This document shows, piece by piece, positions 30,227-46,030 of a stretch of 64,000 nt of DNA. The position numbers were made by a program, and so were the translations under genes. The stretch lies in NCBI GenBank assembly GCA_029262795.1, contig JAJCYT010000031.1, positions 124,001-188,000 on the forward strand, read 5' to 3'. The notes beneath the pieces are model-generated. The model had not been told where the DNA came from. It did not search any database and saw only the letters and a program-made list of their open reading frames with translations. The DNA is from Candidatus Fraserbacteria bacterium. GTDB taxonomy: Bacteria > Bipolaricaulota > Bipolaricaulia > RBG-16-55-9 > JAJCYT01. Each line of letters starts with the position of its first letter. The stretch's first letter is position 1.

Positions 30227-30229
30227 TTC

Positions 30230-30334
30230 GCTCACTCATTAGCAGAACATCTGTTTATCCACCTCCATCACAAACTGAGGTGCTCACTGTCTGTCTGGTG
30301 AGGGAAACAACGCCTTACGTAATCCGTATTACCT
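30230..30334. promoter_or_regulatory. Repeat-rich region upstream of parA, possible centromere or operator
   Basis: The 127-base gap holds GCTCACT twice (30230-30236 and 30282-30288) and an inverted repeat CACCTC/GAGGTG (30260-30265 and 30277-30282). It also holds CTCAC/GTGAG (30283-30287 and 30298-30302) and GTAAT/ATTAC (30319-30323 and 30328-30332). Such clustered short repeats are usual where a ParA partner binds. No clear -35/-10 pair stands out. Confidence 0.4.
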
Positions 30335-30353
30335 TTGCCATCATGAATGAACT

Positions 30354-31133
30354 ATGGCAATTACGATATCGATTTCTAATCAAAAGGGTGGCACGGGCAA
30401 AACGACCACGGCTACCAATCTGGCTGCTGGCCTGGCGTTAAAGGGCCACAAAACCTTACTTGTTGATTTTGATGCACAGAAAAACAGTTCAGACTACTTC
30501 GATCTGGTGGCCCCGGAAGTCACTGTGATCGATGTAATGGATGGGCGTTGCAAGGCAGAGGACGCCGTCTATGAAACCGATATAGATCACCTCTATCTTA
30601 TCGGCGGCTCGAAAGAGCTGAAAAACTATGAGGCCACCTTGCTCACTCAACCGGCACGAGAAAGAATTCTGCAACGTCGCCTGCAAGGCATTCAGGAGGA
30701 CGTTGACTTTATTCTTATTGATTGCGCCGGGGATCTTGGCACCACCACACTCAATGCCTTGACTGCGGCGGATTACGTGTTGATTGCCTCTCAGGCAGAG
30801 GAGTTTTCGTTTAGAGGCGTGGAAGATTTGCTTCACACGGTAGACATCATCCGTGATGCGCTCAATCCAAAACTGGAAGTGTTGGGGGTGTTATTGACCA
30901 TGTATCAGAAAACGCTCAGGCATCATCGAGACATTGAGCATCATCTGTTCAGCAATGACACACTGACTGACAAATTGTTTGACACCAAAATTCGGCGCAA
31001 CATTCAATTGTCAAACGCTGCTTCGGTCGGCCAACCTATCCAGCTTTACGACGCCGGATGTCATGGCGCAAAGGATTACACCCTGCTCACGGAGGAGGTT
31101 TTATCCCGATGCCACCAACCCGTACAACTTTAA
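30354..31133 (+). CDS. parA: ParA/Soj-family partition ATPase
   Basis: The 259-residue ATPase has the deviant Walker A motif NQKGGTGKTTTATN, Walker A' LLVDFDAQKN and Walker B ILIDCAGDLG. The last would usually read CPPSLG, so the catalytic loop differs slightly. No N-terminal helix-turn-helix is present, as in chromosomal Soj and type Ib plasmid ParA. The last 25 bases overlap the ribbon-helix-helix gene, which takes the place of parB. No other plasmid or phage gene is near, so this is a stand-alone cassette that may position DNA or another cargo. Confidence 0.9.
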   Translation: MAITISISNQKGGTGKTTTATNLAAGLALKGHKTLLVDFDAQKNSSDYFDLVAPEVTVIDVMDGRCKAEDAVYETDIDHLYLIGGSKELKNYEATLLTQPARERILQRRLQGIQEDVDFILIDCAGDLGTTTLNALTAADYVLIASQAEEFSFRGVEDLLHTVDIIRDALNPKLEVLGVLLTMYQKTLRHHRDIEHHLFSNDTLTDKLFDTKIRRNIQLSNAASVGQPIQLYDAGCHGAKDYTLLTEEVLSRCHQPVQL

Positions 31134-31345
31134 AAGGCGAACCAGCACGGCCTTCCACATTGCCAGGCCAAGACATTCAGCCAGTGGAAGATCGCAAGCA
31201 GTTTGCTTACCGGATGCGCAGGTCGCTGGGGGAAAAGTTTCAACTTTATGCCAAGTACAATCGTGGCATGAATGCCCAAGACCTGATGGAGGAATTGCTG
31301 GAAGAGTTTTTGAGAGATAAGGAGATCAGGCTGCCTGGCGCTTGA
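31109..31345 (+). CDS. Small ribbon-helix-helix protein, probable ParA partner
   Basis: The 78-residue protein starts at the ATG 31109 behind GGAGGAGG, inside the end of parA. An unstructured basic N-terminal tail (about 1-28) precedes a ribbon-helix-helix pattern: strand FAYRMRRS, helix LGEKFQLYAKYN, helix AQDLMEELLEEFLRDKE. ParG and omega, partners of ParF-type ATPases, have the same tail-plus-RHH layout. It is about 40 percent identical, by eye over some 44 residues, to the RHH protein at 45508-45750. The tail would be expected to touch ParA and the RHH dimer to bind DNA. Confidence 0.75.
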   Translation: MPPTRTTLKGEPARPSTLPGQDIQPVEDRKQFAYRMRRSLGEKFQLYAKYNRGMNAQDLMEELLEEFLRDKEIRLPGA

Positions 31346-31350
31346 TTCTC

Positions 31351-31361
31351 CACTGTCTGTC
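31351..31361 (+). repeat. 11-bp direct repeat, downstream copy
   Basis: CACTGTCTGTC lies here and also at 30285-30295, so the copies sit on either side of the parA-RHH genes. They could be binding sites for the RHH protein or chance matches. Confidence 0.35.
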
Positions 31362-31371
31362 CATTCTGCAG

Positions 31372-31412
31372 GAGCAAAGCCGCTGGAAAGTCGCCAGCGG
31401 CTTTGCTCTTTT
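31372..31412 (+). terminator. Strong terminator closing the parA cassette
   Basis: A perfect 15-bp stem (31372-31386 with 31394-31408, 7-base loop) is followed by TTTT and more AT-rich sequence. It separates the parA cassette from the amidohydrolase. Confidence 0.93.
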
Positions 31413-31539
31413 AATTTATGTCTAAACTTGAAAAGGATGAAGCTGGCCCTTGATGGCCTTTTATAGAAATTGCTTTCTTGCAGGCTTGGCAATTATTATG
31501 ACTAAAAGCCATTTCAAGCCAGCCATAAGGGGAGGAATC

Positions 31540-33123
31540 ATGCTGCTAAAATCTCAAACTTTTATCGCATCATTGCTGCTGTTTGTGACTTTTGCCTTAT
31601 CAGTTCAAACAGTTCAAGCGCAAACTGTGGCGTTTGTTAACGTTCATGTGATTCCGATGGATTCGGAACGGATTCTGGAAGACCGTACTGTGATCATTCA
31701 AGATGGCAAAATCTCAGACATTGGCCCATCTGATCAATTGATTGTTCCTGATGGCGTAGACATCATAGATGGCGAAGGTGGCTACTTGATGCCAGGATTG
31801 GCCGACATGCACACGCATCTGGGAGTTTTCGATAATGATCCGCGACACTTGTTGCTCTATCTGGCAGAAGGAACGACCACCGTACGAACTCTCACTGGCT
31901 CTCAGTTGGAATTGAACTGGCGAGATCAGGTGCAGCAGGGGGAATTGCTTGGCCCGTCGATCCTGGTTGGTCGCACGATGTTTGGCATGTATCAGGATTC
32001 TATAGGGCTCAATGGTTTTATTTCGATGTTTCGTCTTGGAGTTTTTGCCTTCCCTTTAGTGTTTATAGGGCTGGCGATGTTGCTTGGATTTCTCCCAAGA
32101 GACCTTTTGATAGGACTTGGTGCTTTAGGCATTGGTGTGCTCAGTTGGATACTTCCATATCCGGCCGCCTCGCCAACATTGTCTACACTGCTTGAACGGC
32201 CAGATGTTTTCGTTTCCGAATCTCCGAGCCAGGCGGTAGAAGAAGTACAGCGAATGCATCAGGCTGGCTTTGATTTCTTTAAAGCTTATGACGGCCTGAC
32301 TGAGCTTGAATTTGTTGCAGCGGTGCGCAAAGCAAATGCCTTGGGGTTTTACACACTTGGTCATTTACCCAATCAAATTCCTATGGAAAAAGCTTTTAGC
32401 ACAGGTTTGCAAGAAATTGCTCACATGGATGAGTTATTGTCTTTTCATTGGATAGACTATGATCCTAATGGTGAAAACGATCCTGAACTTTTACGAAAAG
32501 GGTTTTCTGTCAATTTTGAAACGATTCCAGATACTGTCGCTGTTTTACAAGCATACGATGTGTCTGTTGTTGCCAACCTTTCCACTGATGAAGTACTGTA
32601 TCGCCTCGTCTTCGACACACCAGGCGTATTGGCTGGACCTGAGTATGCGGTTATTCGTCCACAGGCCCTTGAGGCGTGGGCGACAACCGGTCGCAATGTA
32701 ACAAGTTTTGCAGAGCAAGGTCCAAACCGCCGTGACGAAGTGCAACCTTTTTTGGAAGAACTGACACTTGCTTTACATGAAGCAGGTGTGGTCATCACGA
32801 TTGGCACAGATTCCAATGTAGAAGGTTGCATCCCGAGTAATATTCATCGAGAATTTGAATTACTAGTCAAAGCTGGACTTAGCGATTATGAAGCACTTGT
32901 TGCTGGCACCAAAGCGGCCAACGAAGTGGCTGGCCGAATGGGCAAAGGAAATCATTTTGGCACCGTTGAGGTTGGCAAACGCGCAGACCTTATCCTGCTC
33001 AATCATAATCCTTTAGAAAATGTGAGCCACACAAGGGATCGAAAGGGTGTTATGGTCCAAGGTGTGTGGCATACTCAAGAAGAATTGGATGCAATGGTTC
33101 AAGCATTTGTTTCAACTTATTAG
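31540..33123 (+). CDS. Exported amidohydrolase with an inserted membrane hairpin
   Basis: The 527-residue protein starts with a signal peptide (about 1-27, ending VQAQ). It has the metal-dependent amidohydrolase motifs PGLADMHTHLG (about 85-95), TLGHLPN, IAHMDELLSF and ITIGTDSNVEG. It resembles imidazolonepropionase- and prolidase-like members. Residues about 165-184 and 187-206 are strongly hydrophobic and look like two membrane helices placed inside the barrel, which is unusual. I chose the ATG at 31540 because GGGGAGG stands just before it and the signal peptide then begins at residue 1. The stop is TAG. Substrate unknown. Confidence 0.8.
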   Translation: MLLKSQTFIASLLLFVTFALSVQTVQAQTVAFVNVHVIPMDSERILEDRTVIIQDGKISDIGPSDQLIVPDGVDIIDGEGGYLMPGLADMHTHLGVFDNDPRHLLLYLAEGTTTVRTLTGSQLELNWRDQVQQGELLGPSILVGRTMFGMYQDSIGLNGFISMFRLGVFAFPLVFIGLAMLLGFLPRDLLIGLGALGIGVLSWILPYPAASPTLSTLLERPDVFVSESPSQAVEEVQRMHQAGFDFFKAYDGLTELEFVAAVRKANALGFYTLGHLPNQIPMEKAFSTGLQEIAHMDELLSFHWIDYDPNGENDPELLRKGFSVNFETIPDTVAVLQAYDVSVVANLSTDEVLYRLVFDTPGVLAGPEYAVIRPQALEAWATTGRNVTSFAEQGPNRRDEVQPFLEELTLALHEAGVVITIGTDSNVEGCIPSNIHREFELLVKAGLSDYEALVAGTKAANEVAGRMGKGNHFGTVEVGKRADLILLNHNPLENVSHTRDRKGVMVQGVWHTQEELDAMVQAFVSTY

Positions 33124-33253
33124 CTTTTATTTGATCTAAAAGGGAAAACATGATTTATGCCCACCCTGAATTGGGTCTGAGTGGTTATTGATTCAAGGTG
33201 AGTATCGGCATCTCAATATGTCAGCGTCAATAAAAACAATATAGAATCATCTT

Positions 33254-33793
33254 ATGGAATACCGTGAAATGAATCCTGATGAACTTGTCCGAATCGGGGA
33301 AGTCAATCGGGAAGAAGTTGTTAAAGGCATTTACAAGCCAGAACCTGATGAATCTGGGCTTGGCATCATCGCCCACTACAAAAAGCTTGAAAAGCCAGTG
33401 AACCTCAACCATTGGGGCGAAGCAGGCACAGAGAGCCGAATTAAAAGCTGGAAGCCCGCACTTGATAACGGTGGTGCGATGTATGGCGCATTTGAAGGCG
33501 ATACATTTGCTGGTTTCATCATTCTAGGCCCACCACAAAACGATGCTTCTGCTGAAGTGGTTGCTCTGTTCATTGATCGGGATTTCCGTTATCAAGGGGT
33601 GGGTTCAAAGCTTATGCAGTGGGCAGAGGTAAAGTGCAAAGAAATGAATGTCAAAGCCATGTACGTCTATTCCAACCCAACTGTGTCTTCAGCGAATTTC
33701 TATATGAAATCAGGGTTTCAAATCTCTGGTTTGGTTTCAAAACACATCGTCAAGAGTTTGCCTGGTGACCTTGTGCTTGCAAAAAAGATTTGA
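33254..33793 (+). CDS. GNAT acetyltransferase
   Basis: The 179-residue protein has the GNAT core FRYQGVGSKLMQWAEVKC (acetyl-CoA loop QGVGS) and the late strand-helix VYSNPTVSSANFYMKSGFQI. The N-terminal 80 residues, with KKLEKPVNLNHWGEAG, are not typical and may set the substrate. It stands alone between the amidohydrolase and a nucleoside hydrolase. The acceptor is unknown. Confidence 0.85.
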   Translation: MEYREMNPDELVRIGEVNREEVVKGIYKPEPDESGLGIIAHYKKLEKPVNLNHWGEAGTESRIKSWKPALDNGGAMYGAFEGDTFAGFIILGPPQNDASAEVVALFIDRDFRYQGVGSKLMQWAEVKCKEMNVKAMYVYSNPTVSSANFYMKSGFQISGLVSKHIVKSLPGDLVLAKKI

Positions 33794-33907
33794 AAATCAT
33801 CTGTTTAATTATTACTCACAATTCTCCTAAATAGAAAAAATTGGTGAGTTGTCAAAAAACAATTTCGTTTTTACAATCCGCTTGACCTTGTGAAAAAAGG
33901 AATCTTC

Positions 33908-34861
33908 ATGTCCACCAAAATTATTCTCGACACCGATCCTGGCATTGATGATACGATGGCCATCTTTTATGCCATTGCTCATCCTGAAATCGAATTAATT
34001 GCCATGACCAGTATTTTTGGCAATGTGTCTGCAAAAGAAGCGGCACACAATGCATGTACACTATTAGATTATGTCGGTGTTGATGCCGATGTTGCCAAAG
34101 GTGCAGGCAAGCCTTTGGTCGCTGAACCTCGCCCCCACTCCTATCATGTGCATGGTGAAGATGGTTTTGGAAACGTAAATTTGTCTTTGTCGGAAAAACC
34201 TTTGCATGAATTGTCCTCAGCCGAATATCTGGTAGAAAAGACCAAAGCACATCCTGGCGAAATTACTATTGTGGCTGTTGGTCCTCTGACCAATCTTGCG
34301 TTGGCATTGGACATGGACCCACAGATTGTCAACCGCGTGAAAGAAGTCGTTGTCATGGGCGGGGTAGTTTATCATTCGGGCAACGCATCTCCTGTGGCTG
34401 AAGCGAATATCCTTAACGATCCTCATGCCGCCGAAAAAGTGTTTGCGGCTTCCTGGCCTTTGGTGCTGGCTCCAATGGATGTGACCATGCCTGTCGTGTT
34501 TACACCGAATTATTTTGCAGATCTTGCAGATGCAGCACCTAAGATGGGTGGTTTGATGAAACAAATGGCGAAATTCTATATCCGATTTTACAAACGCTAT
34601 CATGGCTTTGACGGCTGTGTGCCTCACGATGTGATGGCGCTGACCTATTTAACAGCACCCGGCATGTTTTTAAGAAAGCGCGGTTCGCTCAGTGTGGTGA
34701 CAGAAGGCATAGCAGTAGGGCAAACGGTTTTTGTACCCTCAGGAAAATTCAAACATGTGGCATTCTGGCAGAATCGACCTCAGCATGATGTGTTGCTGGA
34801 GATTGATGCCAATATGTTCTTGTCGCATTATTTCCAAACCATCGAAAATTGGGAAGCTTAA
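33908..34861 (+). CDS. Inosine-uridine preferring nucleoside hydrolase
   Basis: The 317-residue enzyme splits ribonucleosides into base and ribose. It has the calcium-binding aspartate cluster DTDPGIDDTM at the N-terminus, VAVGPLTNLALAL, EANILNDPHAAEKVF, and the catalytic-side His region in VPHDVMALTYL. I chose the ATG at 33908 with AAGGAA upstream over a GTG six codons earlier. It could feed uracil into the pyrimidine-degradation operon at the start of the window, although the two are 28 kb apart. Confidence 0.92.
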   Translation: MSTKIILDTDPGIDDTMAIFYAIAHPEIELIAMTSIFGNVSAKEAAHNACTLLDYVGVDADVAKGAGKPLVAEPRPHSYHVHGEDGFGNVNLSLSEKPLHELSSAEYLVEKTKAHPGEITIVAVGPLTNLALALDMDPQIVNRVKEVVVMGGVVYHSGNASPVAEANILNDPHAAEKVFAASWPLVLAPMDVTMPVVFTPNYFADLADAAPKMGGLMKQMAKFYIRFYKRYHGFDGCVPHDVMALTYLTAPGMFLRKRGSLSVVTEGIAVGQTVFVPSGKFKHVAFWQNRPQHDVLLEIDANMFLSHYFQTIENWEA

Positions 34862-34866
34862 GTGAC

Positions 34867-35550
34867 ATGCATCCTCTCACAAAGCTGATTCAGAAACAAC
34901 TCAAAGAAGCGGCTGACTCTGACAAAGCAGTTCCGATGCAGGCTTATATGAAAACTGATCAACCGTTCTATGGTGTTCAGGCAAGGGCACGAAAGAAGTT
35001 ACTCAAAACGGCAGTTAAAGATTTTAAAAACATCAGCCGCGATGAATACCAAAAAATCATTTTTGAGTTATGGTCGGGCGAGTATCGTGAAGAGATGTAT
35101 CAGGCATTGGAAGTGGCCTGTCATTATAAAAAATTTCGAGACGAAACCTCCTGGTCTATCTATGGAAAGCTGACCCGAACTGCGACTTGGTGGGACACGA
35201 TTGATTGGATAGCGAGCCAACTCATCGGTTTATTGGTTCTGGAATATCGACATCTGGAATCCCATTTGATTGTATGGTCAGAGGATGAAAGCATGTGGGT
35301 AAGGCGTACTTCTTTGTTGGCACATCTCAAACACAAAGAGGCGACCAACACAAAACTACTCACAGACACTATTTTGAAGCTGTGTCACGAAGAAGAATTT
35401 TTCATTCGTAAAGCGATTGGGTGGGCACTGCGGCAATATTCTCACACCAATCCTGAGTGGGTCAAAACATTTGTGCAGCAGCACGAACAAAAACTTTCCA
35501 ACCTCAGCAAACGTGAGGCATTAAAGCATATTCAGCGTCAGGGATTATAA
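34867..35550 (+). CDS. AlkD-type DNA alkylation repair protein
   Basis: The 227-residue all-helical protein has the HEAT-like pattern of AlkD glycosylases: FYGVQARARKKLLK, LWSGEYREEMYQALEVA, WWDTIDWIAS with the catalytic Asp region, and the highly typical EEFFIRKAIGWALRQYSHTN. It would remove 3- and 7-alkylated purines from DNA. The ATG at 34867, 5 bases after the nucleoside hydrolase stop, fits family length. An in-frame non-ATG start at 34849 is less likely. Confidence 0.9.
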   Translation: MHPLTKLIQKQLKEAADSDKAVPMQAYMKTDQPFYGVQARARKKLLKTAVKDFKNISRDEYQKIIFELWSGEYREEMYQALEVACHYKKFRDETSWSIYGKLTRTATWWDTIDWIASQLIGLLVLEYRHLESHLIVWSEDESMWVRRTSLLAHLKHKEATNTKLLTDTILKLCHEEEFFIRKAIGWALRQYSHTNPEWVKTFVQQHEQKLSNLSKREALKHIQRQGL

Positions 35551-35561
35551 AGCTGAGAAGC

Positions 35562-36569
35562 TTAAATCATTTTGAGAACTGCCCGAAAGCGAACATCTCC
35601 GGCCATCATTTTCTCGAAAGCTTCATTGACCTGTGACAATGGAAACACTTCAATCATCGGTTTAACGCCATGAGCCTGAGCAAAGGCCATTGCATCTGTG
35701 GAGTCCACTGCCGTGCCTGAAGACCACCCTTGAATGCGACGTGTAAAGGACACCAGACCCTGCACATTAATTTCAATTGGCTCCCCTGGCACACCAAGTA
35801 CCATTAAACAGCCTTGGACCCCAAGTCCATCTGACAATGCTGAAATAGAAGCTGCATCCGGCGCGGTGGCCAAAATAGCCTTCGCACCACCCATTGCCAT
35901 GAGTTGCTCAGAAACAGACGCAGCTTGAGTGTCTATGTAGTGATGGGCACCCAACTCTTTTGCAAACGATGCTTTATCAGCGCCACGCGAAATGGCTGCG
36001 ACTTCATAGCCCATTGTCTTTGCGTATTGAATGGCCACGTGCCCCAGGCCGCCCAATCCTTGAATGCCGACCAACTCACCTGGACTTGCTCCAGAGTTTC
36101 TTAGTGCGTTAAAGGAAGTCACGCCCGCACACATCAATGGTGCGGCTTCTTCTAAGGCCATAGCATCAGGAATGTTTGCACAAGCCACAGAGGGTGCAAT
36201 CATATATTCTGCATACCCTCCGTCTGTCGTGATACCAGTGACCTGAGCATTTTCGCAGCGTTGCAGGTGTCCGGCCAAACAGGCATTGCAGGTGCCATCA
36301 TGACCACCATGCCAACCGACACCCACTTTGTCACTGACTTTCAATCGACTTTCGCCTAGGGCAATGGCTTCCACTACGCCAGCCACTTCATGACCAGGAA
36401 CGCGAGGATATTGCTGATTCTGCCAAAGCCCATCAGTGACCAGGTGATCGCTATGGCAAATGCCACAAGCATGTACTTTGATAAGCACTTCACCTGGCTT
36501 GGGTTGAGGAATCTCGCGTTCTTCTTCGTTAAACAATTCGCCTTGTGCTCGAACGGCCATGACTTTCAT
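35562..36569 (-). CDS. Zinc-dependent alcohol dehydrogenase (AdhP-like)
   Basis: The 335-residue medium-chain dehydrogenase has the catalytic zinc ligands in CGICHSDH and GHEVAGVVE. The structural zinc loop has the Cys pattern DGTCNACLAGHLQRCEN, and the Rossmann motif is GIQGLGGLGHVAIQYA. It would interconvert primary alcohols and aldehydes with NAD(H). It is 12 bases downstream of the PLP decarboxylase, on the same strand. The pair could decarboxylate an amino acid and handle the alcohol or aldehyde that follows, but the link is only positional. Confidence 0.92.
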   Translation of the reverse strand: MKVMAVRAQGELFNEEEREIPQPKPGEVLIKVHACGICHSDHLVTDGLWQNQQYPRVPGHEVAGVVEAIALGESRLKVSDKVGVGWHGGHDGTCNACLAGHLQRCENAQVTGITTDGGYAEYMIAPSVACANIPDAMALEEAAPLMCAGVTSFNALRNSGASPGELVGIQGLGGLGHVAIQYAKTMGYEVAAISRGADKASFAKELGAHHYIDTQAASVSEQLMAMGGAKAILATAPDAASISALSDGLGVQGCLMVLGVPGEPIEINVQGLVSFTRRIQGWSSGTAVDSTDAMAFAQAHGVKPMIEVFPLSQVNEAFEKMMAGDVRFRAVLKMI

Positions 36570-36581
36570 AGAGATTCCTTT

Positions 36582-38039
36582 TTAGAGAAGACTTTTGCCC
36601 AGCCGAACCACTTCTTCAACGAGCAAATCAAAATCTTCGCTTCGGGTGCGGTGGTTGGTGTTGGCCACACGAATCATGAACTTGCCATCCAGCGTGGCAT
36701 AGGAAGGCGCAGCCACACCACTTTCGTGAAGCTGCATCAAGATTTCCTTGTTGAGATCACTTAATTGTTCATCACTCAATCCATGTTCAGTAAATCGGAA
36801 ACAAGCAACATTTAGTGGAGAAGGTGCCATCATTTCCAGGCTTGGGTGAGTTTCGACAAGCTTTACCAGATACTGAACCTGATCCACATTTTGCTTGATG
36901 AGGCGGCCATATTTTTCGATGCCGTGTTCCTTCAGTGACATCCATACTTTCAAGGCGCGGAAGTTACGACTTAGCTGAACACCATACTCACTGGGCCACC
37001 AATTGCCTGAAGCCATGCCGCGTTCCATAAAGGCCAAATAGCTGGCAGGGGTATTAAATGTGTTGCGATGTGCTTCAGGAAAACGCACCAAGGTACAGCC
37101 AACTTCAATCGGCATGTACATCCACTTGTGTAAATCAAAAGCCAAAGAATCGGCACGATCCAAACCGTTGACCATCGGGCGCAGTTCTGGCGATACAGCG
37201 GCCAACGATCCAAATGCGCCATCAATGTGAAACCATAAGTCTTCAGCCTGAGCGATATCGGCCAGCGAATTGAGATCATCAATGGCGCCTGTGTTTACCG
37301 TGCCAGCGTTGCCCACAATGCAGAAAGGTTGATGACCGGCTGCATTATCCTGCTGGATCGCTGATTTGAGCGCATCAAGATCAATTTGATAATCGGCGTT
37401 GACGGGAATTTTTCTCAATGATTGGCTGCCCAAACCTAATAACTCAACGCCTTTGTCCACGGAATTGTGAACCTGATCTGAGGCATACACCATCATTCGA
37501 GCTTTTTCAGCCAGGCCTTCTTGACGAATATCAAAATTGGCCTTGGTGTTTCGAGCCACGGTCAGGCCAGTGATATTGGCCATTGAGCCGCCACTGGTCA
37601 GCAGGCCGCTGGCTTCAGGTGTAAAGCCAAGCATTTCTTTGCACCAGTCGATGACTTGAAGCTCAACTTCATTTGAAATCTGTTCGCCGCCGCCCACATT
37701 AAAATTCATGCCTGCACAAAGCATGTCGGCCAGCATACCCATTGGGGTGCCTGTGCCAATGACCCACCCCCAGAAACGAGGATGAATGTTTCCTAAAGGG
37801 CGAGGCATGATCTACTCTTTAAAATCCTGATAGGCTTGATTTGCACCTTCTGGTTGTTGTGGTGCATCTTGCTTAAAGAAATCTTTGACTTCTTGGGGGA
37901 TAGGTTGCCACACAGGTTTTTCACGGATGCCTTGTAGCAAATCCATCATATCATCGACCATTTGATGGCCGAGATTGCGCATTTCCTGCCAATCCTGTGG
38001 GTCTAATGTTTCTTCCTGAAGTTTCAATTTGTCGGTCAT
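36582..38039 (-). pseudogene. Group II PLP decarboxylase interrupted by an in-frame TAG
   Basis: Two frames in the same phase together form a pyridoxal-dependent decarboxylase of the aromatic amino acid/glutamate group of about 485 residues. The first piece (38039-37812, 75 codons) starts behind AAGGAG and holds the usual N-terminal helices, ending YQDFKE. Then come TAG (37814-37812), ATC, and ATG at 37808, continuing PRPLGNIHPRFWGWV, which normally follows within the same chain. The large piece (408 residues) keeps the catalytic lysine in AFDLHKWMYMPIE. The gene may be freshly inactivated, read through, or translated as two parts from the ATG that follows the stop. TAG ends other genes here, so the code is not changed. 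Confidence 0.75.
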
Positions 38040-38073
38040 GGTTCACTCCTTGAACAGATTCAAACGAACACCG

Positions 38074-38104
38074 ATTATACATTTTTTTGCATCGGCTGTG
38101 GCAA
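38074..38104 (-). promoter_or_regulatory. Promoter candidate of the PLP decarboxylase
   Basis: On the minus strand TATAAT (38079-38074) is preceded by TTGCCA (38104-38099) with a long 19-bp spacer. The site lies 35 bases before the decarboxylase start in the gap to the divergent dipeptidase. Confidence 0.45.
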
Positions 38105-38172
38105 AAGGCGCTTGCTGGATTAAATTGTGCCAAACCGTTAAAACATAAATACCCCCAACTTCAGGAGGACGT

Positions 38173-39555
38173 ATGAGTGCTTGGCAAACTTACCTTGATA
38201 ACAACCAGGACAAATTTTTAAATGACTTTCTTGAGTTTTTAAAATTCCCCAGCATTTCCAGCTTGCCTGAACACATGGATGATGTTCGACGTGCAGGCCA
38301 GTGGGTGATGGATTATCTGAATAATATTGGCATGGAGAATGTTCAGATGTTGGAAACAGGTGCGCATCCCATCGTTTATGCCGATTGGATGCATGCTGAA
38401 GGCAAACCAACCGTATTAATCTATGGCCATTTTGACACTCAGCCTGTCGATCCTTTGGATCAGTGGGACAACCCACCGTTTGAGCCAACCGTCAAAGACG
38501 GACGTGTGTATGCACGCGGAGCCAGTGATGACAAAGGTGGGATGTTTACGCCGATCGTTGCTGCGGAAGCATTGCTCAAAGGTGAAGGTGCACTTCCTGT
38601 CAATGTTAAATTCTTTTTTGAAGGCCAGGAAGAAATTGGCAGCCCACAATTGCCTGAGTTCATGGAAAAGCACAAAGACCTGCTGGCCTGTGATTTGGCC
38701 CTTAGTGCCGATGGCGGACAATGGGGAGAAGATCAGCCTTCGCTGATGTTGGGGTTTAAAGGCATGTGTGCATTGCAGATTGATGTTCGGGGGCCGAATC
38801 TGGACCTGCACTCTGGCTTGTATGGAGGGGCAGTACAAAACCCGATTCACGCACTCGTCCGCATCCTCGACTCGTTGCGAAGTCCAGAAGGAAAAATCCT
38901 TGTTGGTGGCTTCTTCGATGACGTGGTCGATTTAACAGATGCAGACAAAGCAGGTTTTGCCGAAGTGCCTTACGATGATGCTTCTTACAAAAAAGACCTG
39001 GATGTCGATGCCCTTTTTGGTGAACCAGGATACACCACGTACGAGCAGACATGGGCACGGCCAACATTAGAGGTCAATGGTATTTATGGTGGCTTCCAGG
39101 ATGAAGGTGTTAAAACTGTGATTCCTAGTCTGGCACACGCCAAGATCACCTGTCGGTTGGTGGCCGACCAGGACCCTCAGAAAATCTTCAATGCAATCAA
39201 AACACATATCGAAAAGAACACGCCTCCTGGCGCAAAAGTGACCGTAACGGCTTTGGGCGATGGGGTCGAAGCTTATCTGATGCCATCCGACCATCCAGGC
39301 AATCACGCGGCATCTGCGGTATTGACCGAGTTGTATGGCAAAAAGCCCTATTACGTTCGCGTTGGTGGCAGCTTGCCGGTGTGTACCCTGTTCAAAAAAT
39401 ACTTGGATGTGTACATGATTAACTATGCATTTTGTTTGATGGACGAACAGGCGCACGCGCCCAATGAGTTTTTCCGTCTGAGTAATTTTGATCGGGGTCA
39501 CAAAGCTTACTGCATGCTGCTTCATCATTTAGGAGAACACGGATTGGCCAGCTAA
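38173..39555 (+). CDS. M20-family dipeptidase
   Basis: The 460-residue metallopeptidase has the first zinc ligands and Asp in [17 protein letters not shown], the bridging region [15 protein letters not shown], the catalytic Glu pair in [10 protein letters not shown], and the later [14 protein letters not shown] dimer-domain stretch. It matches bacterial M20 dipeptidases close to carnosinases. The start at 38173 follows CAGGAGG. It is cytoplasmic, as no signal peptide is visible. The pyrophosphatase follows within 26 bases. Confidence 0.93.
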
Positions 39556-39580
39556 TACAATGGATGCTAAAGGAGATCAC

Positions 39581-40195
39581 ATGAGCTTTCCTGAACCTTT
39601 TTATCGTTGGCGACCTCATCCTTGGCATGGGTTGGAAGTGGGTCCAAATCCGCCAGAAACGGTGTATGCGTATATTGAAATCACCCCGTTTGATTTGATG
39701 AAATATGAGTTGGACAAACTTACCGGTCACCTGAAAATTGACCGTCCACAGCGTACTTCCTCTCAGCCGCCCACGTTGTATGGCTTTATTCCGCGCACCT
39801 ATTGTGGCAAGCGTGTTGGCGAACTCATGGAGGGAGCCACCCGTGGAGATGCTGACCCACTCGATATTTGTGTGGTCAGCGAACGCCCCATTTCGCGCTC
39901 CGAAGTTTTTCTGAGCGCCAGAGTCATTGGTGGCCTGGAAATGATTGATGACGGAGAAGAAGCAGATGACAAAATTATCGCCGTGCTGGAAAATGACAGA
40001 TTTTGGGACAAAGTATCGGATGTTAGAGACCTGCCAGATGTATTGGTTGATCGGCTTCGGCACTATTTCAGCACCTACAAAATGAGTTCAAGAGGTCAAA
40101 ACTCCGTCACAGTTGGCGATCCTTATGACCTTGCGCATGCAAAAAAAGTCATCCAAGCTGCCATGGCTGATTATCAGGACATGTTCGGAGAGTAG
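39581..40195 (+). CDS. Inorganic pyrophosphatase
   Basis: The 204-residue protein is a family I soluble pyrophosphatase: [17 protein letters not shown] near the start, the metal-binding aspartates in [17 protein letters not shown], and [12 protein letters not shown] later. These match the signature D(G/A)DPLD. Slightly longer than E. coli Ppa (175) but in the family range. ATG at 39581 has AAGGAGA upstream. The signature lacks the usual DGDPLDV wording, reading DADPLDI, which keeps all three aspartates. Confidence 0.9.
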
Positions 40196-40196
40196 C

Positions 40197-40658
40197 GTGG
40201 AAATTCGTGAAGATGATCTAACAGGTAAGGAGATTGCCAATCTGCTTCAGGAACACTTGGATGATATGCATGAAACTTCACCGCCTGAGAGTGCTCATGC
40301 GTTGGGTTTAGAAGCGTTACAATCTTCCGATATCACCTTATGGTCAGCATGGAATGATGATGTCCTGCTCGGTTGTGGGGCATTGAAAGAGCTCGACTCA
40401 TATTCTGGCGAAGTGAAGTCCATGCGAACTGCTAAGGATCATCGTGGCAAAGGTGTGGCTTCAAAAATCCTTGAACATATGATCAAAGAAGCTCAACGCC
40501 GTGGCTATAAAGTCCTTAATCTGGAAACAGGTTCAATGGTTGAATTTACCCCTGCCCGCACTCTATATGAGCGATATGGTTTCGAATACTGTGGTCCTTT
40601 TGCGGACTACACTGAAGACCCAAATAGTGTGTTTATGACCAAGAAACTCGTTGACTAA
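40197..40658 (+). CDS. GNAT acetyltransferase (YafP/PhnO-like)
   Basis: The 153-residue enzyme has GNAT features MRTAKDHRGKGVASKILEHM, LNLETGSMVEFTPARTLYER and an end YTEDPNSVFMTKKL, which is typical of a small acetyltransferase subgroup. The start GTG at 40197 has GGAGAG in front, 2 bases after the pyrophosphatase stop, so the two are co-translated. A longer in-frame start would overlap the pyrophosphatase by 80 bases and lacks such a site. Confidence 0.83.
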   Translation: MEIREDDLTGKEIANLLQEHLDDMHETSPPESAHALGLEALQSSDITLWSAWNDDVLLGCGALKELDSYSGEVKSMRTAKDHRGKGVASKILEHMIKEAQRRGYKVLNLETGSMVEFTPARTLYERYGFEYCGPFADYTEDPNSVFMTKKLVD

Positions 40659-40679
40659 GCAGAGCCAACGTTGCATTTA

Positions 40680-41222
40680 TTAACGCGTCAATGCCAATCC
40701 TGTAGCCAAGCGGACAGTATTATCAACCAATTCATGTAAGCGTTCTTTCATCTCGCCATCGATATCACCCCCCTGGAAAGCGGCGCGGGTGGCATACACA
40801 AAGCGCGGCACGATGTAGCTGCGGAAATCGAACATCAAACTGTTAGCCAAACCAATTGGAGACATATAGCTGTTGGCACCACCTGCTGAGCACATCAAGC
40901 CAACCACTTTGTTTTCCCAGGCGCTGCCGGTCAGTTCTATCACGTTTTTGGCGGCGGCGTTGAGGTCGTAATTATACACAGGTGCAGCCAGCAAAATAGC
41001 ATCAGATTCATCAATCACAGTTTTGAGTTTTCCAACAGATTCGTGACCATAAGCGGCATTGCCATCACAAAAAGGCATGTCGAGTTCGCGTAAATCCATG
41101 TGGCTTGTAGGGATGCTTTGTTCGTCGAGATACGCCTTGGCCGCTTCAGCGAGTTTGGCAGAATTACTGCCAGGGTTTAGAGAACAACTTAACACCAGAA
41201 CTTTAATGATGGCCTCATTCAT
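40680..41222 (-). CDS. NADPH-dependent FMN reductase/flavodoxin-like oxidoreductase
   Basis: The 180-residue flavoprotein has the FMN phosphate loop SCSLNPGSNSAKLAEA, the PVYNYDLNAAAKNVIEL stretch around the flavin and VGLMCSAGGANSYMSP. These are typical of NADPH-dependent FMN/quinone reductases (PF03358). It stands alone, convergent with the acetyltransferase and divergent from the class V aminotransferase. Confidence 0.85.
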   Translation of the reverse strand: MNEAIIKVLVLSCSLNPGSNSAKLAEAAKAYLDEQSIPTSHMDLRELDMPFCDGNAAYGHESVGKLKTVIDESDAILLAAPVYNYDLNAAAKNVIELTGSAWENKVVGLMCSAGGANSYMSPIGLANSLMFDFRSYIVPRFVYATRAAFQGGDIDGEMKERLHELVDNTVRLATGLALTR

Positions 41223-41321
41223 GGATGCTTCAACCTCCAGGTTTGGTTACAATTCAAATTCATTTTGATCAGAATGGATAACAGCATATCGAGATATTTT
41301 TCATTTTGCATTGGAGCGTCC

Positions 41322-42509
41322 ATGACTCTAGATCTTGAACAAATTCGTAAAGACACACCAGGGGTGAACCATTGCATTCACCTCAACAACTGTGGGGCCA
41401 GTTTACCACCTCAACCTGTAATGGATGCCATCAGTGAACATCAACATCTGGAAGCCACCATAGGAGGCTATGAGGCGGCGGCTCAAGCTCAGGACAAACT
41501 GGAGCGCATGTATGATGCCATTGCAAAACTCATCAATTGTTCCAGGGAAGAAGTGGCTTTTATCGAAAACGCCACCCGTGCCTGGGACATGGCCTTTTAT
41601 TCATTCGACTTCCAACCAGGTGATTGCATCATCACGGCGATGGCAGAGTACGCATCCAATTACATTGCCTATCTTCAAGTGGCACGCAAGCATGGCCTGA
41701 CGATCAAAGTGGTTCCCAATGATGAATTCGGTCAATTGAGCATCAAGGCACTCGAAAGTTTGATTGACGAAGATGTCAAACTGATCTCGGTGGTGCATGT
41801 GCCGACCAATGGTGGATTAGTGAATCCTGCCGAAGCAGTAGGGAAAATTGCACGAGCCAATAATATTCCTTTTTTGCTTGACACATGCCAGTCCATCGGC
41901 CAAATGCCTGTCGATGTGGATGCGCTCCATGCGGATATCATTATCGGTACAGGTAGAAAATATTTGAGAGGGCCGCGAGGTACGGGTTTTTTATATGTGC
42001 GTGACTCATTGATTGAACAACTTGAGCCACCCTTCCTGGATCTGCAAGCAGCCACCTGGACTGGGCGGGATCAGTTTGAAATCCGTAAGGATGCACGGCG
42101 CTTTGAAACCTGGGAGCGGCATGTGGCTGGTCAAATTGGATTGGGTGTGGCCGTTGATTATGCTTTGGATTTGGGATTGGAAAATATCTATGACCGGATT
42201 CAAACGCTGGCCGATAGTTTGAGGCATCAATTGGCAGCACTGCCAAGTATCACAGTTCGAGATTTGGGGCAGGAACAGTGTGGCATTGTGACGTTTACAT
42301 CAGATCAAAAGACACCCGAACAAATTCAAACCGGACTATCTAAGCGGAACACCAACACCAGTCTGTCACAAGCCCCAAGCACGTTGCTGGATATGAATCA
42401 GCGAGGGTTGGAAACAGTCATCCGAGCAGGCGTCCACTATTACAACACAGAAGAAGAAATCATCACACTGGTTGATACAATTGAAGAAATTCTGAAAGAG
42501 GATGGATGA
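41322..42509 (+). CDS. Class V aminotransferase-fold PLP enzyme
   Basis: The 395-residue PLP enzyme has HLNNCGASLPPQPVMDAI near the start, FIENATRAWDMAFYSF, the cofactor Asp in DTCQSIGQMPVDVDAL and the Schiff-base lysine in IIGTGRKYLRGPRGTGFLYV. It resembles isopenicillin-N epimerase-like and cysteine desulfurase-like members. No cysteine-loop motif of IscS is seen, so sulfur transfer is doubtful. The ATG at 41322 has GGAG 7 bases upstream. Its stop overlaps the LLM gene by 4 bases. Confidence 0.85.
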   Translation: MTLDLEQIRKDTPGVNHCIHLNNCGASLPPQPVMDAISEHQHLEATIGGYEAAAQAQDKLERMYDAIAKLINCSREEVAFIENATRAWDMAFYSFDFQPGDCIITAMAEYASNYIAYLQVARKHGLTIKVVPNDEFGQLSIKALESLIDEDVKLISVVHVPTNGGLVNPAEAVGKIARANNIPFLLDTCQSIGQMPVDVDALHADIIIGTGRKYLRGPRGTGFLYVRDSLIEQLEPPFLDLQAATWTGRDQFEIRKDARRFETWERHVAGQIGLGVAVDYALDLGLENIYDRIQTLADSLRHQLAALPSITVRDLGQEQCGIVTFTSDQKTPEQIQTGLSKRNTNTSLSQAPSTLLDMNQRGLETVIRAGVHYYNTEEEIITLVDTIEEILKEDG

Positions 42510-43366
42510 AATACGGCATTCACCTGCCCAACGTTGGCCCTTTTGGCAGTGCTCGTGTGATGGCCGATTTGGCCAAGGAAACGGAAACCGCAGGTTGGGA
42601 TGGGTTTTTTATTTGGGATCACATCAATCGCGCTTACGTGTTTGATAATGTGAACCCTTGGGTGGCATTGGCCGCCATTGCGATGAACACCTCCACGGTC
42701 AAAATTGGCGCGCATGTGACGCCAACACCCAGGCGTCGACCCTGGAATCTGGCACGGGAAACGGTGTCAATTGATCATCTTTCGGATGGTCGCCTGATCT
42801 TTGGCTTTGGCATAGGTAGCGGCGCGCGCGAGGAATGGGATGTTTTTGGCGAAGAAACCAACCCCAAAATTCGTGGTGAAATGCTGGATGAAGGGCTGGC
42901 TGTTTTAACGGGGCTGTGGACTGGTGAACGCTTTTCATTTGAAGGCAAACATTACAAGGTCGAAGAAACAAAATTTATTCCCAAACCAATCCAGTCTCCT
43001 CGCATCCCATTATGGGGCGCAGGCGTTTGGCCCAACAAAGCACCGTTTCGGCGGGCAGCTCAGTTTGATGGCATCTATCCGATTATTAACCCTGGTGAAA
43101 CCCCGGAGTTGGAACAGTTTCAACAGATGGTTGCTTTTATGAAAGAGCAACAGATTCAAGCTGATTTCGATTTTATCTTCATGGCAAATTTTCAAAAACC
43201 AGAGACTTGGGACTCTGTTGAAGATCAAGTGGAACAGTATGCAAAAGCGGGTGCCACTTGGTGGATTGAGGAATTTACACCTGGACAATTTGGATTGCAG
43301 TGGGATGATCCCTGGCCGGTGGATGTGTTGAAAGAACGCATTGCAAAAGGCCCGCCTTCCTTTTGA
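42506..43366 (+). CDS. LLM-class flavin-dependent oxidoreductase
   Basis: The 286-residue luciferase-like monooxygenase has the family core GWDGFFIWDHINRAYVFDN, VKIGAHVTPTPRRRPWNLAR, LSDGRLIFGFGIGS and IPLWGAGVWPNKAPFRRAA. It would use FMN or F420. Only the YvcK/CofD-fold protein hints at F420 here and it does not look like a true CofD. The ATGA overlap couples it to the class V aminotransferase. Confidence 0.9.
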   Translation: MKYGIHLPNVGPFGSARVMADLAKETETAGWDGFFIWDHINRAYVFDNVNPWVALAAIAMNTSTVKIGAHVTPTPRRRPWNLARETVSIDHLSDGRLIFGFGIGSGAREEWDVFGEETNPKIRGEMLDEGLAVLTGLWTGERFSFEGKHYKVEETKFIPKPIQSPRIPLWGAGVWPNKAPFRRAAQFDGIYPIINPGETPELEQFQQMVAFMKEQQIQADFDFIFMANFQKPETWDSVEDQVEQYAKAGATWWIEEFTPGQFGLQWDDPWPVDVLKERIAKGPPSF

Positions 43367-43412
43367 GCATTTTGATTTAACAGATATGCTTCAAGTAAGA
43401 AAGGACAAATTC

Positions 43413-43718
43413 ATGATTCTTGAAGTGGCGACATTGGATGTGAAGGCAGGTCAGCAAGATGATTTTGAAGTTGCTTTTAAAGAAGCTGAATCGATCATTT
43501 CCAGCATGAAGGGGTACCTTTCACATCAGCTTCAAAAATGCATGGAAGTTGAGAACCGTTATCTGTTGTTAGTTCGCTGGGAAACATTGGAGGCTCATAC
43601 CGAGGGGTTTCGAGGTTCACCGGAATATCAGGTATGGCGAGAAAAATTGCACCATTTCTACGACCCGTTTCCAGAAGTGGTTCATTATGAATTGATTTCA
43701 GAGCAAACCAAATCATAA
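43413..43718 (+). CDS. Antibiotic biosynthesis monooxygenase (ABM)-domain protein
   Basis: The 101-residue ferredoxin-like-fold protein has LEVATLDVKAGQQDDFEVAF, LLLVRWETLEAHTEGFRGSP and ends in a strand after FYDPFPEVVHYEL. These small dimeric domains act in quinone or aromatic monooxygenation and haem degradation, or are of unknown role. ATG at 43413 has AAAGGA 8 bases upstream; the earlier in-frame start would overlap the LLM gene. Confidence 0.82.
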   Translation: MILEVATLDVKAGQQDDFEVAFKEAESIISSMKGYLSHQLQKCMEVENRYLLLVRWETLEAHTEGFRGSPEYQVWREKLHHFYDPFPEVVHYELISEQTKS

Positions 43719-43739
43719 CTATTTGAAAGGGAGGGCGTT

Positions 43740-44066
43740 ATGGATCAGGAAACCACTGTTGTTGAACTAAAACATTTGATTGCAAGTTTTGTAAAATCAA
43801 GAAATTGGGAGCAGTTTCACACCGCCAAAAATCTGTCCATGAGTATTTCAATTGAAGCGGCTGAGCTGATGGAGCATTTTCAATGGCTGGATGGGGAAGA
43901 AAGCAAGCAGTTCATGCAGGATCGCAGCTTTAAAGCACAGGTAGCCGATGAGTTGGCAGATGTGTTGATTTACTGTATCAGCTTTGCCAATCAACATGAG
44001 ATTGACATCAGTGAAGCCATTCGTACAAAAATGATGAAAAATGAAGATCGTTTTCCTGCAAAGTGA
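43740..44066 (+). CDS. MazG-like nucleotide pyrophosphohydrolase
   Basis: The 108-residue all-helical enzyme of the dCTPase/RS21-C6 type has the metal-binding Glu cluster SISIEAAELMEHFQW and the later ELADVLIYCISFANQHEID. It would hydrolyse non-canonical or surplus dNTPs to dNMP and pyrophosphate. Length is typical. Good GGGAGG ribosome site upstream. Confidence 0.9.
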   Translation: MDQETTVVELKHLIASFVKSRNWEQFHTAKNLSMSISIEAAELMEHFQWLDGEESKQFMQDRSFKAQVADELADVLIYCISFANQHEIDISEAIRTKMMKNEDRFPAK

Positions 44067-44145
44067 ATTTTTAACGATTGTTTGACTATTTGTATGAACA
44101 TGTGATGGGCTGAACTTGCGACACAGAAGAGAGTGAGTCATTTAC

Positions 44146-44557
44146 ATGTTGCAGAAGTTTATTCCGTTGGTTGGGCGTTTGTTCATTGCTTTACCACTTC
44201 TTAATTTCGGTACTTATAAAATCAACAACTGGGAAATGTTGGTAGGCTGACTGGATTTCAAAGGCTTGCTATTACCGGCTGTTTTACTGGGGTTGTCCAT
44301 TGCCATTGAACTTGGTAGGCGCTTTGTTACTCATTCTTGGTTTACAGGTTCGTGCTGCGGCAGTGGTGTTGTTTCTTTATTTAATTCCCGTGACATTTAT
44401 CATGCACAATTTTTGGGCCATGTCTGCCGCTGAACAACAGTTTGCAATCGAAAGCTTTGGTAAGGGCTTAATGATTATGGGCGGATTGTTTTATGTTTAC
44501 ACGTTTGGCAGTGGTCCTCTAAGCCTCGATCAAAAATCAAATAAATCCAGTAAATGA
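44146..44557 (+). pseudogene. DoxX-family membrane protein gene with a nonsense codon and a frameshift
   Basis: The frame from ATG 44146 reads as a DoxX N-terminus (KFIPLVGRLFIALPLLNFG) until a TGA at 44248-44250. The same frame then continues in DoxX-like sequence LPAVLLGLSIAIEL. At about 44313 one extra T shifts the frame, and the rest (VGALLLILGLQVRAAAVVLF, then IPVTFIMHNFWAM) follows in the next phase to the stop at 44557. Removing one T in GAACTTGGTA restores ELVGA. Two separate lesions suggest a decaying gene rather than one sequencing error. Intact homologues are about 130-150 residue quinone-linked membrane proteins. Confidence 0.8.
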
Positions 44558-44609
44558 ATCAATAAAGAGTAAGCATAAACTTTCATTATCCGGCGGCAGC
44601 CATATAAAG

Positions 44610-44939
44610 TTATTCGAGGATGAGGTGCCAGTGGTCTAGGTCTTTGAGGGCTTGTTCCACAGCACGGCCAGATTCCATAACCTGTTTGGACAGGCTGGCC
44701 AGAGTTTGCTCATCTTGGTCGGCGATGGCTTTGTCGAACACTTCCATGATGTCTTTTTCCTGTCGCAGGGCAGAGACCACCGCTTCTAGTTGGGTGATGT
44801 ATGAGATGAGAAAAGGAACATCTACACTGGCCAGTTTGCCCGAAGATGTTTTGACATCGGTTTTCGCGCGCTCGGATTCGCCAACCACTGTGGCGGTTTT
44901 CAAAATCTCTTCGAGTCGGGCGTTCATTTTTTCGGACAT
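44610..44939 (-). CDS. Hypothetical helical protein
   Basis: The 109-residue soluble protein is predicted to be mainly helical: LEEILKTATVV, then a central ISYITQLEAVVSALRQEKD coiled-coil-like helix, then LASLSKQVMESGRAVEQALK. It has a clear AAAGGA ribosome site before the ATG at 44939. No cysteines, signal peptide or known motif. Convergent with the DoxX remnant. Confidence 0.65.
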   Translation of the reverse strand: MSEKMNARLEEILKTATVVGESERAKTDVKTSSGKLASVDVPFLISYITQLEAVVSALRQEKDIMEVFDKAIADQDEQTLASLSKQVMESGRAVEQALKDLDHWHLILE

Positions 44940-45027
44940 GGCAATCCTTTCTCAGTCACAATTGGCTCACTGGATATGATACCAAATCTTGGTAACAGAT
45001 GTTGAGAAAGATGTAAAAATGAGAGGT

Positions 45028-45058
45028 GGGCAGTTGGTTCTTGCCTGACCAACTGCCC
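45028..45058 (-). terminator. Terminator after the small membrane protein
   Basis: An 11-bp perfect stem (45028-45038 with 45048-45058, 9-base loop) is followed on the minus strand by CCTCTCATTTTTAC. It lies 37 bases past the stop at 45096 and would end the RHH/membrane-protein pair. Confidence 0.65.
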
Positions 45059-45095
45059 TAGTCTTGGCTATGGGGAAGATCGTGAAGAGAGTCGT

Positions 45096-45497
45096 TTAGA
45101 ATGATTTTGCGTACAACAGAACCTTGTCAATGGTGCAGCCGGAAGCGATCATTTCGAACTGCCACTGCTGGCCTTCTTTGAGGTCTACAGCGTGATCGAA
45201 AACCGATTCACAGATGTCGCCATCTGGGTTCATCAGGTTTGCTCGGATGAGCAGAAACTCTACATCTTCGTTTGCTTCTAACTGACCAATAACCTTGTTT
45301 TTGTAGACCGCGATGGTGTTGGGAAGCCATTCGACGGTCTCGTTGGTCAGCGTCTCAACACCGACTCTAATCCCCTCATCCGCTTCGGATTGAGTCAGGT
45401 TGGTGAAATCAACAGTGCCCGATACGGCCACCATGATAAACGCTCCGACCACCAACACGGTCGCTACGACCACGACAGAAGCGAATGTTTTTAACAT
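45096..45497 (-). CDS. Hypothetical single-pass or exported protein
   Basis: The 133-residue protein starts with a hydrophobic stretch (about 6-27, VVVVATVLVVGAFIMVAVSG) that is a membrane anchor or signal peptide. A compact outside domain follows with two cysteines (DICESVF, ASGCTIDK) that could form a disulfide. Its AAGGAG site overlaps the TAA of the RHH gene 10 bases upstream, so both are translated from one message. Function unknown; this kind of anchored domain resembles small FxLYD-like proteins, but I would not name it. Confidence 0.65.
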   Translation of the reverse strand: MLKTFASVVVVATVLVVGAFIMVAVSGTVDFTNLTQSEADEGIRVGVETLTNETVEWLPNTIAVYKNKVIGQLEANEDVEFLLIRANLMNPDGDICESVFDHAVDLKEGQQWQFEMIASGCTIDKVLLYAKSF

Positions 45498-45507
45498 GAA
45501 TATCTCC

Positions 45508-45750
45508 TTACTTGGCGTTGTAGCGGATGACAATTTCCTTGCCGTCCATAAATTCAACCATCAATTCTTTCAATTGGTTTTGTGCGGTGAACCCATTGGT
45601 TTGGCACCACAACTTAAACGCATTGCCTAAATCCTTTGGCAAGCGATAGGTAAAGTCTTTTAGTTCCACAACCTCCGACTCTGATCCACCTCCCGACAGC
45701 CCGTTGTTTCTTGGTTTGCCGTTGGCGCTGACCGAGTGCTTTTTTGCCAT
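45508..45750 (-). CDS. Second ribbon-helix-helix DNA-binding-like protein
   Basis: The 80-residue protein has a basic, Gly/Ser-rich tail (about 1-32) and then an RHH pattern: strand FTYRLPKD, helix LGNAFKLWCQTNG, helix TAQNQLKELMVEFMDGKE. It aligns with the ParA partner at 31109-31345 (about 18 identities in 44 with one gap). The ATG at 45750 follows AGGAGG. Immediately upstream is the GC-rich, palindrome-loaded region, an obvious candidate binding site. No ParA is beside it. Confidence 0.75.
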   Translation of the reverse strand: MAKKHSVSANGKPRNNGLSGGGSESEVVELKDFTYRLPKDLGNAFKLWCQTNGFTAQNQLKELMVEFMDGKEIVIRYNAK

Positions 45751-45840
45751 GGTTAAAAGAACCTCCTGTTGCCAGTTGCTGTGTCTTGTTTGTTGATGCC
45801 CACAGATTAGCGGAGGGTGAAAAACACTCACATCCCAGAC

Positions 45841-45975: not shown

Positions 45976-46030
45976 TTAAGTCACACTAAGGGTTGTGTAA
46001 CAATGTATCTTTTTGGTCAGCAAAATGGGT

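Follow-up and report, generated by a model that had tools for sequence, protein, structure and literature searches.

The 64,000-nucleotide window analysed here, the whole stretch of DNA presented above, lies on a 380-kb contig (C31) of a 4.05-Mb metagenome-assembled genome (MAG) of Candidatus Fraserbacteria, phylum Bipolaricaulota. As read from its sequence, it contains a gene for a Soj-type ParA ATPase, a translationally coupled gene for a ribbon-helix-helix (RHH)-type partner and, in front of them, an array of short phased repeats. A second gene for an RHH-type protein, hereafter the orphan, stands elsewhere in the window with no ParA of its own. The explanation that we favour, with modest confidence, is that the window carries a duplicated and diverged chromosomal ParA–RHH partition-type cassette, accompanied by an RHH-only third copy, the orphan, which is probably a regulator. 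A ParA duplicate, its partner and a motor-less twin of that partner, each beside an array, suggest a previously undescribed ParB-free DNA-positioning system.

The comparison set consisted of 100 genomes of the phylum Bipolaricaulota; the window genome is the sole member of its own family among the genomes searched. Genome-wide scans with the array model and for parS covered 2.33 of the 4.05 Mb.

ParA gene and operon

The product of the parA gene is a deviant Walker A ATPase without an N-terminal helix-turn-helix domain, with the sequence KGGTGKTT at residues 11–18 and the AAA_31 domain spanning residues 4–176. Residues K11, K16, D40, Q42 and D123 are all kept, and the catalytic set is thus intact. 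The best matches in the PDB are chromosomal Soj/ParA proteins, headed by ParA of Myxococcus xanthus (8ray). Two motifs of the window protein have lost their prolines, DFDAQ replacing DxDPQ and DCAGDLG replacing DCPPSLx, and the partner-binding loop has diverged (AGDLGTTT). In M. xanthus ParA, the residues L150 and L152 are reported to be essential for the interaction with ParB, and the 8ray protein is described as a D60A variant (PMC12462528). If residue 41 of the 8ray chain is read as the D60A position, residues 131 and 133 would correspond to L150 and L152; at the equivalent positions the window ParA has Leu128 and Thr130. In the related ParA proteins the first of these is also Leu and the second is V, I or M.

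On the maximum-likelihood tree, the window ParA and a second ParA of the same genome, encoded at C26:165336, appear as sisters (support 95/89) within a group that includes the f4 proteins (99/98). The C26 protein is the more canonical of the two, and the branch of the window protein is longer (1.01 versus 0.49); the gene was thus duplicated in this lineage, and the window copy diverged afterwards. The operon is carried among ordinary chromosomal genes on its 380-kb contig, and that of one relative (G006) adjoins rpsB, a setting that does not fit carriage on a plasmid. GC skew analysis of the contig revealed no clear origin near the operon, and dnaA is located on another contig, C21.

Four more ParA genes are present in the window genome (C42:11875, C24:2640, C28:256428 and C9:21260; loci L126–L129), each preceding a different small presumed RHH partner. 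The C42 and C24 loci look mobile, having transposase-like and replication-type neighbours.

Two homologous RHH-type proteins and their family

The earlier note on this DNA proposed that the 78-aa ParA partner (P0001) and the 80-aa orphan (P0002) are a homologous pair. Both open reading frames exist with the lengths claimed, the orphan on the minus strand, which had been left unstated. Homology was confirmed by BLASTP (43 bits, E 2e-12, 23 of 70 positions identical) and by Smith–Waterman alignment with the BLOSUM62 matrix, in which the two proteins scored 99 and 2000 shuffles gave at most 48. Six further proteins that are known or presumed to be of the RHH type, among them other ParA partners of the genome and Arc, scored 19–35 with either of the two, so the likeness exceeds that of RHH folds in general. 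Each window protein scored 103–115 with the C26 copy and with the proteins of three relatives, more than the two score against each other, and P0001 and P0002 are therefore members of a family rather than a private pair. The homology proposed earlier thus stands. A third member, encoded at C26:166187, follows a ParA gene of its own. A tblastn search of the genome found exactly these three members.

Beyond the window genome, a profile search of the comparison set detected the family in just three genomes, G006, G008 and G012, which belong to the same order as the window genome; G011 yielded one weak match of 19 bits. Each of the three relatives has one parA–RHH operon and none has an orphan, so the co-occurrence of the pair in related genomes, suggested earlier as a check, was not observed; none of these relatives is from the window's own family. 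No relatives were detected in viral contigs (profile scan) or in plasmids and phages (tblastn), and Pfam, NCBIfam and PHROGs provided no confident family. A tree of the six RHH proteins was not resolved and had very long branches. Judging by these comparisons, P0001 and P0002 are true homologues in a small RHH family named by no curated library.

The family likely has the RHH fold. Its profile matches the RHH repressor SvtR (2kel, E 0.0022), and the AlphaFold model of the orphan consists of a low-confidence tail (approximately residues 1–30) and helices at residues 39–52 and 56–68, with weak PDB neighbours of which most are of the RHH type (CopASO, Arc, omega, PutA and ORF56). The RHH fold comprises a beta strand and two helices and binds the major groove as an intertwined dimer; the strand forms only in that dimer. 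As to the tails, described earlier as basic and disordered, the basic character is slight, with five K+R against three to four D+E.

Phased YYRR arrays

The DNA upstream of parA genes of this family matches itself at a lag of 4 bp (37 of 64 positions for C26, 44 of 64 for G006 and 28 of 64 for G008). The repeated units have the form pyrimidine-pyrimidine-purine-purine (YYRR) and resemble CTAG, CTGG, TTAG or CTAA. A YYRR test was performed over 48 bp, with region-level p-values obtained from blocks of the same length of contig C31. The array in front of the window parA has 29 of 32 YYRR matches (region p 0.0009–0.0016) and begins some 20 bp before 30230–30334, the region to which the earlier note had drawn attention. 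The corresponding values were 0 of 2063 blocks for G006, 0.0005 for G008, 0.0008 for C26, and 0.006 for the orphan promoter. Altogether, arrays were found upstream of four of the five parA–RHH operons of the family. For 29 other ParA genes, the majority with partners of different types, no clear array was detected in the upstream DNA; the lowest p-value, 0.017, is about that expected by chance for 29 tests. The array p-values are somewhat optimistic, since the YYRR form was spotted in these very promoters and more than one window length and lag was tried. The reversed-pattern control used in the array searches lacks independence: reversal yields the identical pattern shifted by half a unit.

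A period-4 position-specific scoring matrix was trained only on the C26, G006 and G008 arrays, that is, outside the window. Among 123 intergenic regions of C31, it ranked C31:285084–285300 first (26.6 bits), the window parA promoter second (21.0 bits) and the orphan promoter region third (14.9 bits), followed by a region with 8.4 bits. On this ranking, both RHH loci lie beside one class of site. The score of the window parA array also exceeds 18.1 bits, the maximum for an order-3 Markov genome in the 2.33-Mb scan. A strict search (10 units, at most three mismatches) gave matches in 10 of the 100 genomes, comprising three of the four with the RHH family and seven of the 96 others (p 0.003). A comparison of the parA and orphan promoters for exact words in common found none above chance; the link is seen only as the phased purine/pyrimidine pattern.

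Additional strict arrays were found away from parA in the window genome, G006 and G008. The strongest free-standing array in the part scanned, with up to 31 of 32 matches, is C31:285094–285141 (L088:5094–5141), located 131 kb from parA in an intergenic gap of 217 bp, flanked by a cystathionine-synthase-like gene and a gene for a 157-aa protein. A perfect 10-unit array, CCAGCTAGCTAACTAGCTAGCCAACTAGCTGGCTGGCTAA, occurs in G006 (C250:185–224, L131), where the rpsB gene group has it at its far end; its distance from the parA array is 1.9 kb. Other free-standing arrays are G006 C99:9210 and G008 C6:13349. The tetranucleotide CTAG is rare in contig C31 (200 observed, 1470 expected).

The orphan locus

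The orphan and its surroundings are listed together with the parA operon in Table 1. The earlier description of the orphan as lying beside a dense palindromic site was accurate: two perfect 14-bp palindromes and one palindrome of 10 bp are present, and two palindromes of at least 12 bp in one 280-bp block occur in only two of 229 blocks of the window. A 23-bp imperfect inverted repeat also lies between the orphan and the terminator-like stem of the upstream gene. No perfect palindrome of at least 10 bp was found on the parA side. The possibility that the orphan promoter belongs to a dispersed repeat family (repetitive extragenic palindromes or miniature inverted-repeat transposable elements) was rejected, the genome containing no second copy, and an Rfam search of positions 30000–47000 gave no match. 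The longest palindrome of the window, an 18-bp perfect one (GCTGGCAACGTTGCCAGC, 11830–11847), lies within an open reading frame; its flanks are CTGG and CCAG, and the array model gives it 12.3 bits.

Table 1. Features of the parA–RHH operon and of the orphan locus (positions in the window)
Feature	Position	Strand	Remarks
4-bp-phased YYRR array, candidate centromere/operator	30211..30258	.	TCAG TTAG CTGG TTAG TTCG CTCA CTCA TTAG ...
ParA/Soj-type Walker ATPase, 259 aa	30354..31133	+	Pfam AAA_31, 9e-50; PDB 8ray, E 7.5e-44
RHH partner P0001, 78 aa	31109..31345	+	start overlaps parA stop by 25 nt
Strong intrinsic terminator closing the parA–RHH operon	31370..31410	+	17 pairs
FxLYD-like small membrane-anchored or secreted protein	45096..45497	-	NCBIfam NF038353
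Orphan RHH paralogue P0002, 80 aa	45508..45750	-	no parA beside it
Perfect 14-bp palindrome	45847..45860	.	GCTGGCGCGCCAGC
Perfect 14-bp palindrome	45877..45890	.	GTGACGCGCGTCAC
4-bp-phased YYRR array in the orphan promoter region	45917..45964	.	14.9 bits, block p 0.0018; CCAG AAAG CTGG ACAC CTGG GTGG CTGG GTTG TCAT ATGA CTGG TCAT
10-bp palindrome	45948..45957	.	GTCATATGAC; within inverted repeat 45937-45984
Terminator-like stem separating the upstream gene (46031-47548, -) from the orphan promoter region	45980..46001	-	

The FxLYD-like gene begins 10 nt downstream of the orphan and is probably co-transcribed with it; its match to the family (E 1.5e-4, 21.6 bits) is slightly below the cut-off of 23 bits. 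The simplest reading of this arrangement is that the two genes would form an autoregulated operon, the orphan most likely binding the array and the palindromes of its own promoter as the regulator of the FxLYD operon. The orphan might also act at the ParA arrays, as an accessory factor or as a competitor; its coupling to ParA is not indicated.

The N-terminal ParA handle

For ParA/MinD ATPases, the stated rule is that the partner uses a charged and disordered N-terminal stretch to make contact with the ATPase (PMC10241942). The partners of the C26 and f4 ParA proteins have a common N-terminal motif, KRKxIVxxNPL, followed by LPGxD, which we refer to as the handle, and related motifs (RRSIAHDPL, KRRTIGTNPL) start many small proteins encoded behind other ParA genes of the phylum. 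Tails were scored with a matrix built from 16 such sequences; those of C26 and G008 scored strongly, and both were in the training set and serve only as a positive control. P0001 has kept the LPGxD part as LPGQD and has lost the NPL motif. The orphan tail is marginal, its KKHSV resembling KRKSI weakly (shuffle p 0.066), and both LPGxD and the PL part of the handle are absent from it. Since the partner tail and the ParA loop expected to receive it have both changed in the window copy, either an insulated pair or decay would fit. The joint drift of tail and loop away from the canonical C26 copy suggests a second pair insulated from the first.

Comparison with known systems

Partition systems of type Ib, such as ParF–ParG of TP228 and delta–omega of pSM19035, resemble the window cassette in combining a ParA-family ATPase with a small RHH-type protein having a disordered N-terminus, and their repeats serve also as operator. 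Their centromeres are contiguous degenerate repeats, comparable to the window array (PMC9499535, PMC7308502). However, the window ParA, with 259 aa, is not a short ParF-like protein (about 190–220 aa), and its PDB matches are to chromosomal Soj/ParA rather than ParF. The cassette also differs from type Ib systems in its location on a chromosomal-type contig, in the lack of plasmid or phage matches for the RHH protein, and in a repeat phase of 4 bp (YYRR) instead of a heptad.

Chromosomal ParABS (Soj–Spo0J) has in common with the window cassette the ParA subfamily (8ray, 1wcv) and a basic N-terminal partner motif, whereas the window partner is of the RHH type and has neither CTPase nor sliding clamp. 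M. xanthus, too, has a pair of small RHH paralogues, CdbA and CdbB; CdbA is reported to be essential, and the organisation of the nucleoid to depend on it (PMC7156744). Unlike the window genes, cdbA and cdbB form one operon for which no ParA partner is reported, and their products bind c-di-GMP and are reported only in Myxococcales. CdbA and CdbB were not retrieved when the RHH family profile was compared with the PDB set. Finally, MetJ, Arc and omega bind short phased boxes as tandem RHH dimers, and Arc and omega, together with CopASO, are among the structures that the orphan model resembles; in contrast to these proteins, the 4-bp phase of the window is deduced from sequence alone, and no metabolic ligand is known.

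Proposed mechanism and alternative explanations

In the favoured explanation, RHH dimers would line up next to one another along the array, in the manner of omega on its heptads, repressing the parA operon and at the same time forming a partition complex. ParA–ATP dimers would bind the nucleoid, and the disordered N-terminus of the partner would contact ParA and trigger ATP hydrolysis, releasing the nucleoid-bound ParA. In this way the array-bound DNA, namely the parA locus and free-standing arrays such as C31:285094, could be positioned or segregated. For omega, activation of ParA takes an uninterrupted run of at least four repeats (PMC9499535). Given several arrays per genome, and since neither ParB nor, in the part scanned, parS was found, positioning of the chromosome or of a locus would be the natural cargo function.

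Several observations weigh against this explanation. About 8% of the window MAG is missing, and the RHH family was found in four genomes in total, all of one Bipolaricaulota order. The AlphaFold model of P0001 has the two equivalent helices, but no RHH match in the PDB. The P0001 tail fails the handle motif (shuffle p 0.78), and stimulation of the ATPase may therefore be lost; in addition, the branch of the window ParA is long. As for the sites, the array is degenerate, the window parA array shares 16 bp with the end of the gene before it, the G012 operon has no significant array upstream (p 0.33), and five f6 genomes without the RHH family hold strict arrays of other flavours. The orphan array scores below the maximum of the Markov genome and is thus within genome-wide noise, so that its support rests on the place having been named in advance (the block p of Table 1).

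The main rival is that the arrays act only as transcriptional operators, with the RHH proteins as autorepressors, and that ParA positions a protein cargo, as do McdA, ParC and PpfA. The arrays do sit in promoters, RHH proteins are classic autorepressors, and in family f8 a similar ParA-partner N-terminus is attached to FtsZ, a cargo other than DNA. However, this leaves aside the free-standing arrays located away from parA in the window genome, G006 and G008, and the partner is a DNA-binding-type protein without any other domain; we regard an operator-only function as rather unlikely.

The earlier note had gone further, with one ParA driving both RHH loci and organising two DNA sites 15 kb apart. 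The class of site common to both loci agrees with this, homologous RHH domains could form heterodimers, and the weak KKHSV likeness of the orphan tail points the same way. On the other side, the orphan misses the handle motif and its LPGxD and PL parts, the DNA-facing strand residues differ (QFAYR versus DFTYR), and other operon-bearing genomes have no orphan. The idea that ParA supplies energy to both proteins is accordingly not sustained, and we consider the single-motor scheme improbable. Decay is just as improbable, with the window cassette as a degenerating copy of the C26 system that has no present function: the long branch, the lost motif prolines and the lost NPL motif would be expected of relaxed sequences, but the reading frames are full-length, the catalytic residues and coupling are kept, and so are the 21-bit array and the strong terminator.

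A ParB-poor phylum and a possible FtsZ connection

The favoured ParA–RHH cassette occurs in a phylum most of which appears, from profile searches, to be without ParABS. No match to ParB (PF02195) was found in the window genome at E 1e-4, in a search with 9 of 14 controls positive, and no exact or one-mismatch parS site (TGTTTCACGTGAAACA) was present in the part scanned. PF02195 was matched in 13 of the 100 genomes of the phylum, and ParA of this kind (E ≤ 1e-20) in 23, leaving 77 without one at this cut-off.

A ParA gene stands immediately before ftsZ in five f8 genomes (G023, G026, G029, G032 and G035; loci L061–L065, L133:7693–9661 and L134:8453–10397), and follows ftsA in both loci checked (L133 and L134). 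The f8 FtsZ carries an N-terminal extension (MNKKRKSIGKDPLEDVMEDFYKS, KRKSIGKDPLEDVMEDFYK) resembling the handle tail of the f5 RHH partner (MKPRRSIAHDPLAESEIMKAFYK), and the ParA proteins of f8 and f5 form sister groups (support 100/100). Each of these five genomes yielded only one FtsZ; most ParA-less families have two. The f8 ParA may position FtsZ directly, and the handle seems, from the resemblance of these tails, to have been transferred between FtsZ and a DNA-binding protein.

A broader proposal, which we put forward only tentatively, is that the chromosomes of one order are segregated without ParB by a Soj-type ParA, an RHH protein and dispersed YYRR centromere arrays, and that the handle is a portable module which moved onto other cargos, including FtsZ in a sister family. 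Binding of RHH partners to contiguous repeat arrays is established for pSM19035 (PMC9499535); what is new here is the 4-bp-phased YYRR array upstream of most parA–RHH operons of the family. For a phylum that appears to be mostly without ParB and ParA, these results provide a concrete segregation candidate, consisting of three proteins and named DNA sites. If the proposal is true, RHH-based partition would be extended from plasmids to the chromosome, with a 4-bp-phased type of site added, and a motif common to RHH proteins and FtsZ would make the rule by which ParA swaps its cargo directly visible in evolution.

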